Positions 1 to 7,577 of a stretch of DNA of 7,647 nucleotides are shown here, in pieces; the stretch's first letter is position 1; every line of letters starts with the position of its first letter. The DNA is from a bacterium (GTDB lineage: Bacteria > CSSED10-310 > JAJRTK01): the NCBI GenBank assembly GCA_024278345.1, contig JAJRTK010000040.1:1-7647 (forward strand). Direction: 5' to 3'. Position numbers and translations under genes: made by a program. The notes under the pieces are model-generated. The model was not told the origin of the DNA, ran no database searches, and worked only from the letters and a program-made list of their open reading frames with translations.

Positions 1-714
1 GCCGAATGTCCGCCCCGTGATCTCCGCCGCGTCGGCCGAGGCCAGGAATAGCGCCACCGGAGAGATCTGCTCCGGCTTCATTTCCTCGGGAACCATGGCG
101 ATATCTTCCGTCATGCGGGTTTTCGCCATGGGGGCCATGGCATTGACCGTGATCCCAAACCGACCAAGCTCTTGCGACGCCACCAGCGTCAACCCAAAAA
201 TTCCCGCCTTGGCCGCTCCATAGTTCGCCTGGCCAAAGTTTCCCTTCAGCCCCGCATAAGAGGTCGTGTTAATGATGCGACCGCCGGAACCTTGTTCCTT
301 CATGCGCGACGCAGCGGCCTGCATACAAAGGAAGGTTCCCTTGAGATGCACCGCAATGACCAGATCCCACATCTCCTCAGTCATTTTCAGCATCGTCTTG
401 TCCCGGAGGATTCCGGCGTTGTTCACCAGAACGTCGATGCATCCAAAGGCATCCACCGCCGTTTGGACGATTCCCCGTGCCCCCCCAGAGTCGGCCACCG
501 AGTCGTAATTAGCTACAGCCTGGCCTCCGGCCGATACAATCTCGTCAACCACCGTGTCCGCCATGGAGCGCGTGCCCCCCGATCCGTCTCGGGCACTCCC
601 AAGATCGTTCACCACGACCTTTGCCCCCTCCGCCGCGAATGCCAGTGCATGACAGCGACCGATCCCTCCGCCAGCACCGGTGATAACGACAACTTTGCCA
701 TCGAAAAGTCCCAT
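1..714 (-). CDS. SDR family NAD(P)-dependent oxidoreductase (3' end cut by window edge)
   Basis: Predicted cytoplasmic short-chain dehydrogenase/reductase that uses NAD(P)(H) to interconvert a hydroxyl and a keto group. The frame is open from an ATG at 714 to base 1, giving 238 residues without a stop. Visible motifs are the Rossmann glycine motif TGAGGGIG (residues 12-19), NNAG (98-101) and the catalytic Ser152, Tyr165 and Lys169 (YGAAK). The N-terminus (MGLFDGKVVVITGAG), the VNDLG-ARDGSG stretch and VHLKGTF resemble SDRs related to the dehydrogenase domain of 17-beta-HSD type 4, that is (3R)-hydroxyacyl-CoA dehydrogenase-like enzymes; a FabG-like 3-oxoacyl reductase is the alternative. The residue usually Asn in the VNLxG motif is His here. 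The start is supported by GAGGTG four bases upstream of the ATG. About 238 residues already nearly fill the usual 245-305 residue length. Family is secure; substrate is not. Confidence 0.
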   Translation of the reverse strand, partial: MGLFDGKVVVITGAGGGIGRCHALAFAAEGAKVVVNDLGSARDGSGGTRSMADTVVDEIVSAGGQAVANYDSVADSGGARGIVQTAVDAFGCIDVLVNNAGILRDKTMLKMTEEMWDLVIAVHLKGTFLCMQAAASRMKEQGSGGRIINTTSYAGLKGNFGQANYGAAKAGIFGLTLVASQELGRFGITVNAMAPMAKTRMTEDIAMVPEEMKPEQISPVALFLASADAAEITGRTFG

Positions 715-855: not shown

Positions 856-885
856 CTATAACCCAACTTCGTGGAATGGAGAAAA
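856..885 (-). promoter_or_regulatory. Possible sigma70-type promoter for the SDR gene
   Basis: On the minus strand TTTTCT (880-885) is followed by an 18-base spacer and TTATAG (856-861), a plausible -35/-10 pair firing toward the SDR gene with a leader of about 135 nt. The -35 hexamer overlaps the left target duplication of the adjacent MITE, so the insertion lies directly behind it. The match is imperfect and unsupported by any other signal in the window. Confidence 0.25.
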
Positions 886-889
886 CCAG

Positions 890-913
890 GGCCTCGGTCA
901 TGGTACCGGCCAC
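890..913 (+). repeat. Left terminal inverted repeat of the MITE
   Basis: A 24-bp arm identical to the reverse complement of 1067-1090. It contains the palindrome GGTACC. Identity stops sharply at base 914, which defines the inner end. Confidence 0.9.
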
Positions 914-919
914 CCGAAA

Positions 920-941
920 AAAGCGCGCAGCGCACAAAGAT
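920..941 (+). repeat. Dispersed 22-nt repeat, copy inside the MITE
   Basis: This segment contains AGCGCACAAAGAT and matches the minus strand of 7229-7250 at 20 of 22 positions. It lies between the left terminal repeat and the hairpin array of the MITE. Confidence 0.55.
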
Positions 942-947
942 GTGGGT

Positions 948-1044
948 CCAGGGAGCTGGCTCCCTGGCGTGGGTCTGGGAGCGTCGCTCCCAGCGGAGGT
1001 ACGGAGGCAGAGCCTCCGCCGGGTTCCAGGGCTGGAAGCCCTGG
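948..1044. repeat. Phased array of four GC-rich hairpins inside the MITE
   Basis: Four perfect stem-loops follow one another: 948-967 (CCAGGGAG / CTCCCTGG), 975-993 (CTGGGAGC / GCTCCCAG), 1002-1018 (CGGAGGC / GCCTCCG) and 1026-1044 (CCAGGGCT / AGCCCTGG). Starts are spaced 27, 27 and 24 bases, with 7-8 base linkers. Stem sequences differ from one another, but each remains perfectly complementary, which suggests that pairing rather than sequence is conserved. Loops are 3-4 bases. No T-run follows, so this does not look like an ordinary intrinsic terminator. Confidence 0.85.
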
Positions 1045-1066
1045 GGCGGCGTCTGAAATCTGCACC

Positions 1067-1090
1067 GTGGCCGGTACCATGACCGAGGCC
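1067..1090 (-). repeat. Right terminal inverted repeat of the MITE
   Basis: Exact reverse complement of 890-913, followed directly by the second copy of the AAAACCAG target duplication at 1091-1098. Confidence 0.9.
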
Positions 1091-1155
1091 AAAACCAGCT
1101 CATCTTTTTCCACAAAGAGGAGTTTCTAGTAACATTGCTGTTCATCTTTTTTATG

Positions 1156-1290: not shown

Positions 1291-2520
1291 ATGCGCCGCA
1301 AATTCTTTCTTTTAGGCAGATTTCTTCTGGTCGTTCTGGCTCTGCTGGTGGCGAACCGCCTGGAACAGCGGGTGATCTCGACGCTTATACCCGGCCTTGG
1401 GGTTTCGGTGCCCATCACCGATCCGTCCCAAGCCTTGCTTGCCGCCAACTCCCTGGAAGCGGCTTCTGACGATGGGGATGCTGAATCTCTTTTGACAGCG
1501 TTGCAGGAGAGCGTCCGGGTCCTTGCGCGGCGGCCAGATTCCATGCTGAGATTCGGCCCCGAACGGGTGTCGGCCCGGTCCGTGGTCCATCAGCTCCGGG
1601 AGGTTGCGGGGCTCGTGGAATCGGGTCTGACCGGCCCCGATTTGATGAGAGCTCTTCTTGGGCGGTACCGTCTTTACAGGAGCGCGGCTGGAACAGGGAG
1701 AGTCCTTTTCACCGGCTATTATGAAGCTTCCCTCAAGGGTAGCCTGGTTCGAGGAGGCCGCTACAAAACGCCGCTCTACCGGCTGCCTGACGATTTAGTC
1801 AAGGTCGATCTTGGCCGTTTTCGGGCCGATCTCCAAGAAGAGAAAATCGTGGGCCGCCTTGAAGAGGGGCGGCTGGTTCCCTATCCAGACCGCGCCGCCA
1901 TCGTTTCCGGTGCCCTGGAGGGCAAGGGGCTGGAGCTGGTTTGGGTCGATGATCCGGTGGAGGCGTTTTTCCTGCAGATCCAGGGGTCCGGGCGGGTGGC
2001 TCTTCCCGAGGGGAGGAGCATGCGCGTTCACTATGCCGGGTCCAACGGCTGGCCCTACCGTTCCATCGGGAGGCTGCTCATCGAGGAGGGTAAGATCTCA
2101 AGGAAAAAGATGTCGCTCCAGGCGCTTCGCGCCTATCTCCGGGAGCATCCCGAGGAGCGTGACCGAATCTTCAACACCAATCCCAGTTATGTTTTCTTCG
2201 AGTCAAGAAAAGACGGACCTATAGGGAGCAGCGGCGCTGTTGTGACCGCCGGCCGGTCCATCGCGACGGATTCTCGTTTGTTTCCCGTGGCTGCTCTGGC
2301 CTTTCTTCGAGCGAAGCGGCCGGTGGTCGATGAAAAGGGAGAGCGGATAGGAACAGAGACCATGGAGCGGATCGTTTTCAACCAGGATACGGGTGGCGCC
2401 ATACGAGGCGCTGGGAGAGTCGATCTATTTTGTGGGGTCGGCCCGGCGGCGGAGGCTTTGGCGGGGCAGCTCAAGGATCGGGGCACGCTTTACTTCTTTT
2501 CTCCCTCGCCCGCAGAATAG
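1291..2520 (+). CDS. mltA: Membrane-anchored lytic murein transglycosylase A (MltA with 3D domain)
   Basis: Cleaves the MurNAc-GlcNAc bond of peptidoglycan in the periplasm, leaving 1,6-anhydromuropeptides, during wall turnover. The 409-residue product has a basic N-terminus and a hydrophobic segment at about residues 5-21. The MltA domain follows, with FTGYYE (140-145), the GRYKTPLYRLP stretch (156-166), LVWVDDPVEAFFLQIQGSGR (216-235) and the HYAGSNGWPYRSIG region (247-260). The C-terminal 3D domain has DTGGAIRGAGRVDLF (366-380). By family knowledge recalled, not aligned, Asp378 corresponds to the catalytic Asp308 of mature E. coli MltA. Unlike E. coli MltA there is no lipobox: the only cysteine is Cys381. 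It is therefore probably held in the inner membrane by an uncleaved anchor, or secreted, rather than being an outer-membrane lipoprotein. mutS2 follows on the same strand after 216 bp. Confidence 0.92.
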   Translation: MRRKFFLLGRFLLVVLALLVANRLEQRVISTLIPGLGVSVPITDPSQALLAANSLEAASDDGDAESLLTALQESVRVLARRPDSMLRFGPERVSARSVVHQLREVAGLVESGLTGPDLMRALLGRYRLYRSAAGTGRVLFTGYYEASLKGSLVRGGRYKTPLYRLPDDLVKVDLGRFRADLQEEKIVGRLEEGRLVPYPDRAAIVSGALEGKGLELVWVDDPVEAFFLQIQGSGRVALPEGRSMRVHYAGSNGWPYRSIGRLLIEEGKISRKKMSLQALRAYLREHPEERDRIFNTNPSYVFFESRKDGPIGSSGAVVTAGRSIATDSRLFPVAALAFLRAKRPVVDEKGERIGTETMERIVFNQDTGGAIRGAGRVDLFCGVGPAAEALAGQLKDRGTLYFFSPSPAE

Positions 2521-7250: not shown

Positions 7251-7369
7251 CCCTTTCCTTCTCCTGTTTTGTCCTGTCTTAACACTCATGGAGACCCATC
7301 GAACCACCCCAGAAGCATGAAAGGCTGGACGCTGCGGACACCGATGTTTTCCCCACCCCCAATCTTTTC

Positions 7370-7429
7370 GCATGGAGGCCTTCCGGCCTTTCTCCGGCCT
7401 TTGGCATGGAGGCCTTCCGGTCTCCATGC
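7370..7429. repeat. Paired 17-bp direct repeats forming GGAA-loop hairpins
   Basis: GCATGGAGGCCTTCCGG occurs at 7370-7386 and again at 7404-7420. The second copy continues into TCTCCATGC, so on the minus strand 7404-7429 folds as an 11-bp stem with one mismatch and a GGAA tetraloop. The first copy gives a 5-bp stem (7376-7389) with the same loop. A 10-mer TCCGGCCTTT is also duplicated (7382-7391 and 7393-7402). Confidence 0.7.
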
Positions 7430-7557
7430 TGGCGTGTACTTTCGCGGCAAGACAGATGTCTGCTTTGCGTTTACTTTCATGGTAAGTGGAGACCCCACAT
7501 TCTGGACGTGCTCTTCTTTTAGGGCGGGGTTGTCGGCAAACCCTTTGTTTTCTACGT

Positions 7558-7577
7558 GTTGCGTTCCGCTCACATCG
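7558..7577 (-). repeat. Dispersed 20-nt motif, copy B
   Basis: On the minus strand it reads CGATGTGAGCGGAACGCAAC, 19 of 20 identical to copy A at 2614-2633. A hairpin (stem CGGCGG / CCGCCG, 7576-7595) ends exactly at the CG that begins the motif, just as the palindrome does at copy C. It lies about 370 bases before the HtrA-like start and reads toward it. Confidence 0.6.

Follow-up and report, generated by a model that had tools for sequence, protein, structure and literature searches.

The element at 890–1090 of the window (the whole stretch of DNA analysed, 7,647 nucleotides) is very probably a DUF6399-type MITE (a non-autonomous DNA transposon) present in many copies. It has terminal inverted repeats (TIRs) and target-site duplications (TSDs), is dispersed through its host genome, has a paralogous empty site, and carries TIRs like those of DUF6399 elements. 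DUF6399 proteins share conserved DDE and DxxH residues and a predicted fold described below, and fragments of DUF6399 genes lie beside the MITE TIR in the host. Because the MITE carries DUF6399 end sequences, the DUF6399 family is tied to DNA jumping. A role as DNA transposases is thus likely for a Pfam family of unknown function (PF19936) that ranges over Proteobacteria, cyanobacteria, Chloroflexi, Planctomycetota and others.

The two TIRs are exact reverse complements at 24/24 nt (100%) with 153 nt between them, and AAAACCAG is present on both outer sides as an 8-bp TSD, which confirms what the initial annotation had stated (Table 1). Its description of the element as a MITE without transposase also holds, as the element is short (201 bp), has TIRs and contains no long ORF. 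To judge the structure against chance, the window was simulated 300 times with a first-order Markov model having the same dinucleotide steps. In these simulations the longest inverted repeat within 2.5 kb had arms of at most 16 nt (mean 11), and 0/300 contained one flanked by an 8-bp duplication. The MITE lies in the upstream region common to the divergent short-chain dehydrogenase and MltA genes. The predicted fold of the whole element is -132.6 kcal/mol, with z = -7.6 on the + strand and -11.1 on the - strand relative to shuffles. An Rfam search of the element returned no family at gathering score, the best match being RsmW (20.2 bits vs 52).

Table 1. Features of the MITE locus and its flanking genes in the window.
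Feature	Positions	Strand	Remarks
Short-chain dehydrogenase gene, flank	1..714	-	PF00106, E 2e-43
Left TSD copy, AAAACCAG	882..889	.	identical to 1091-1098
Left TIR, GGCCTCGGTCATGGTACCGGCCAC	890..913	+	exact reverse complement of 1067-1090
Interior without transposase gene, holds hairpin array	914..1066	+	no long ORF
Hairpin 1, CCAGGGAGCTGGCTCCCTGG	948..967	+	common to TIR-less dispersed host repeats
Hairpin 2, CTGGGAGCGTCGCTCCCAG	975..993	+	
Hairpin 3, CGGAGGCAGAGCCTCCG	1002..1018	+	
Hairpin 4, CCAGGGCTGGAAGCCCTGG	1026..1044	+	
Right TIR	1067..1090	-	pairs with 890-913
Right TSD copy, AAAACCAG	1091..1098	.	
MltA-type lytic transglycosylase gene, flank	1291..2520	+	PF03562, E 7e-63

The host assembly is a 6.06-Mb draft of 550 contigs, 87.9% complete, in which the window is contig C506; seven other genomes of the host phylum were sampled. 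The TIR pattern GGCCTYGGTCATNGTACCGGCCA occurs at 250 sites in the host genome with ≤2 mismatches, and the reversed control pattern at 0. This count of 250 TIR ends corresponds to about 125 MITE copies. Further copies at about 200 bp spacing, for which the initial annotation had called, are thus present. Twenty copies are near full length, with a mean pairwise identity of 96.4% (minimum 94.0%). At 2/201 bases (positions 984 and 1001) the window copy departs from the consensus of these copies, while near-full copies differ by 3.6% on average, so that the insertion proposed to be recent is recent in a relative sense. Many TIR sites, among the matches listed, are located at most about 140 bp from a contig end, indicating that the abundance of the MITE breaks up the host assembly. 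Variable positions in the near-full copies are 8/960 in the TIRs vs 76/3053 in the interior (p = 0.001). Several copies have variants in common, which suggests that amplification may have proceeded from more than one source copy. The element was not found in plasmids, phages or 59 sampled genomes, and a TIR search of 386 genomes detected related elements only in G003, a member of the same phylum. Single TIR matches in G182 and G309 appear to be due to chance and were rejected.

Both flanks are available for 19 near-full copies. A perfect TSD of 8 bp is present in nine of them and one of 9 bp in two, and all 11 perfect TSDs differ in sequence. The TSD is absent in the other 8/19. Six of these eight lie within 40 bp of a contig end, the exceptions being L005 and L011. 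Because repeat joins near contig ends are unreliable and misjoined repeats likely there, the missing TSD in the six copies may be an artefact, an explanation that does not apply to L005 and L011. An empty site was also found. The copy at L026 is flanked by GGGCAACG, and a paralogous stretch in L098 has a single GGGCAACG and no element, with flanks 82% identical to those of L026 over 87 bp spanning the junction. Judged by this identity the empty site is paralogous and not orthologous; an empty site was thus obtained as foreseen, only not from a sister strain. The same data bear on whether the element could instead be a repeat that multiplied through recombination or duplication and has TSDs by chance. 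Copies lacking a TSD (8/19) would suit such an origin, but the element boundaries are exact at the TIRs within unrelated flanks, and 11 perfect, different TSDs stand against 0/300 simulations. This origin is extremely unlikely, being already refuted by the TSD and empty-site data.

The ends of the MITE were found to match those of DUF6399 insertion sequences. A host TIR variant, GGCCTTGGTCATAGTACCGGCCA, at C96 (L087) is followed by a leader and then the start of an HTH protein. The first candidate fragments, C96 and C36, had either no Pfam matches or only HTH-type ones, and no plasmid match. Weak relatives in G003 led by tblastn to a DUF6399 protein encoded on a Thiodictyon plasmid, where the gene lies between the TIRs GGCCTTGATCATAAATCCGGCCA and GGCCTTGATCATCGTTCCGGCCA with the 8-bp TSD GTCCAACC. 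Searches of genome contigs with a 61-aa fragment and of viral contigs with P0001 found nothing. A genome-contig scan gave 80 DUF6399 loci, 54 of which had usable coordinates for a blind scan for inverted ends with a duplication of at least 7/8. The scan was positive at 20/54 DUF6399 loci vs 2/266 controls in which flanks had been swapped between loci. With the DUF6399 end sequences given, elements of this family can now be delimited.

DUF6399 elements fall into two TIR groups, A (GGCCTYGGTCATCGTTTCGGCCA and variants) and B (GGSTAYCAACTTAAGSCGGGACA), and the branch that separates them in the DUF6399 protein tree has support of 100/100. Group A insertion sequences occur in Thiodictyon, Lamprocystis, Magnetococcales and Chloroflexi. 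The one from a Magnetococcales genome (L135) has the TIR GGCCTCGGTCATCGTTTCGGCCAC and the 8-bp TSD CCAATCTT, and 21/24 positions of the window TIR are identical to its TIR. The window MITE thus has the group A TIR and 8-bp TSD. It resembles group A insertion sequences in its TIR of about 23 bp (GGCCTCGGTCATCGTTTCGGCCA in L135, GGCCTCGGTCATGGTACCGGCCA in the MITE) and in TSD length. It differs in being 201 bp long and gene-less with a hairpin interior, whereas the group A elements span 1.83–1.92 kb and encode a transposase. Group B includes several copies from Leptolyngbya PCC 7375 that are nearly identical to one another and stand between different duplications. In that strain at least 10 similar DUF6399 elements were seen (L183-L192, L197-L199), four of them shown with different 8-bp TSDs. 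In G003, three DUF6399 C-termini lie near a related TIR. A locus of the same genome, L108 (G003:C95), has an ISKra4-like segment (NF033572, E 1e-23, below cut-off) 3' of a DUF6399-like N-terminus and was set aside as a mosaic; it may be a mosaic or a nested insertion.

Profile searches of the host assembly recovered DUF6399 fragments only and no intact gene. Group A is represented by fragments on C96, C387 and C80, and group B by fragments on C188, C507 and C36. C96 carries the TIR, the leader and a DUF6399-type N-terminus in the host's own genome. On C80 the TIR, with one mismatch, stands 39 bp beyond a group A C-terminus, and on C188 a group B TIR lies beyond a group B C-terminus. With only fragments recovered, the active source has either been lost, lies in the missing 12% or is hidden at collapsed contig ends. 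The initial annotation had postulated an insertion sequence with the same TIRs, acting from elsewhere in the genome. Insertion sequences with matching ends (21/24) do exist in other bacteria; the 88%-complete host assembly contributes fragments, so that mobilisation from within the genome is half borne out. Group B-type TIRs (e.g. GGGTATTCACTTAAGGCGGGACA) were also seen in the host at L110 (C188) position 562, beside the group B fragment, at L095 position 128 and at L098 position 2264. A second MITE-like family occupies the leader of the DUF6399 remnant at L087 (C96), in the stretch that separates the TIR (590-612) from the ORF start (307); its ends are GGGACCTATCARAT/TGATAGGTCCC and its 8-bp duplication is CAACCCAT.

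DUF6399 proteins resemble DDE transposases in conserved residues and predicted fold. D161, D215, D235xxH238 and E488 (L135 numbering) are identical in 27/27 aligned proteins. Transposases that carry a helical insertion domain, ISCth4 among them, have been described with a DDE triad in which the second D is closely followed by a C/DxxH motif (PMC7780238), and the DUF6399 protein has both the triad and the motif. A confident AlphaFold model (pLDDT 89.8) places RNase H-like strands at 154-234, helices at 236-477 and then the E, which amounts to a predicted RNase H-like fold with a helical insertion before the E. The top Foldseek matches of the model are Hermes and ISCth4. Hermes matches with E 6e-4, a whole-chain TM of only 0.30 and 10% identity, and its VIA alignment gives Z 12.6 and rmsd 8.0 over 320 residues. 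Retroviral integrase catalytic cores align by VIA-align with Z about 13-14 over 152-537. The Hermes, ISCth4 and integrase-core matches of this predicted model are regarded as resemblances of fold only.

Two known families are among the closest comparisons. The hAT family has 8-bp TSDs, and its member Hermes is the best Foldseek match of the model, but Hermes is eukaryotic and has a BED finger, whereas DUF6399 has an HTH-like N-terminus. IS256, as represented by ISCth4, shares with DUF6399 the 8-bp TSD, the RNase H-like domain with helical insertion and the C/DxxH motif (PMC7780238), but DUF6399 proteins were not seen to reach the curated cut-off of the IS256 NCBIfam model. The same was true of the other NCBIfam IS-family models. 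Weak matches to IS256_Zn_var were obtained with 3/27 DUF6399 proteins (best E 4e-6, cut-off not displayed) and with none of ten members scanned singly. A PDB sequence search with the DUF6399 profile returned no transposase, a literature search found no mention of the name DUF6399, and PADLOC gave only a weak mad1 match.

Duplications of 8 bp occur with ISL3, IS1595, IS66 and IS256-type transposases, and 8-9-bp TSDs together with TIRs starting GG suit several of these families. The initial annotation named enzymes of these four types, leads that followed from TSD length alone. A MITE belonging to one of these known families would agree with the finding that ISCth4 (IS256) is one of the solved structures nearest to the DUF6399 model. 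It is nevertheless very improbable, as the TIR agrees with that of DUF6399 elements at 21/24 positions and DUF6399 fragments adjoin the same TIR in the host genome. The TIR match instead indicates DUF6399-type elements.

Fetched host DNA was searched with the interior after masking everything ≤205 bp from a TIR. About ten further interior-like places without a TIR were found in the host, e.g. L037, L030 and L116. These TIR-less repeats carry the hairpin GTCCAGGGAGC..GCTCCCTGG and its flanks, and the matches span about 918-1006. Because of this match with TIR-less host repeats, the hairpin interior was probably captured, a host hairpin repeat having come to lie between DUF6399 ends. The hairpin array that had been called an unusual design is real, with four hairpins, but appears to have this simple source. 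The element is an actual example of a MITE that apparently has a captured host hairpin repeat as its interior.

The hairpins could also mean that the element is a host-function repeat, such as a hairpin RNA, a terminator or a nucleoid-binding site, which the host itself has spread and for which movement is secondary. Strong hairpins on both strands, the resemblance of the interior to a TIR-less host repeat and the position of the window copy upstream of two divergent genes are all in keeping with this idea. However, TSDs that differ from site to site, an empty site at a paralogous locus and a conservation of the TIRs above that of the hairpins are marks of transposition, and there is no Rfam match. 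There is very little probability that such a function accounts for the element, although the host could make use of a MITE after its insertion.

Hairpin MITEs with related TIRs were also identified in G003, one of 127 bp with the TSD GAGAAAAC (L212, 8/8) and one of 81 bp (L216, 7/8), and the host has another hairpin MITE of 132 bp with the TSD GGGAATCC. A hairpin interior therefore recurs with this TIR type. The G003 MITEs are like the host MITE in having related TIRs, no gene and hairpin interiors, and unlike it in length (81-127 bp), interior sequence and low copy number. They are independent of the 201-bp host MITE. The bacterial MITE MITEAba12 (PMC6382973) is likewise a gene-less, IS-derived mobile repeat. 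At C32 (L073/L094) the left end of the MITE is fused to CGAACCGTACGTGC. This sequence seems to resemble the 3' portion of a group II intron.

We infer that the DUF6399 protein catalyses transposition and, from the matching end sequences, that a DUF6399 enzyme moved this MITE, by either a cut-and-paste or a copy-out mode. The two TIRs would be bound in trans by the transposase, a DDE enzyme of RNase H-like fold that has a helical insertion domain. This enzyme would cut or copy the MITE and insert it into target DNA with a stagger of 8 bp or sometimes 9 bp, and repair of the stagger would yield the TSD. The interior would have arisen when DUF6399 ends came to flank a dispersed host hairpin repeat. 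The weak points of assigning the MITE to DUF6399 are the absence of an intact source, the 8/19 copies without TSD and a TIR match of only 21/24. A broader proposal, to which we give roughly even weight, is that an undescribed bacterial IS superfamily has the DUF6399 proteins as its transposases, with two TIR groups (GGCCTYGGTCATNGT..CGGCCA and GGSTAYCAACTTAAGSCGGGACA), 8-bp TSDs and a catalytic domain with an IS256/hAT-like helical insertion, the MITE being its amplified non-autonomous form with the host hairpin repeat as cargo.

Other repeats were noticed in the window. Positions 7330-7500 resemble a dispersed host repeat near C438 (L097), with repeated GGCATGGAGGCCTTCCGG hairpins and ACTTTCATGGTAAGTGGAGACC. 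Positions 2614-2633 and 7558-7577 form an inverted pair, CGATGGGAGCGGAACGCAAC / GTTGCGTTCCGCTCACATCG, with 95% identity. This pair is probably another dispersed repeat, as similar sequence seems to be present at other host loci.
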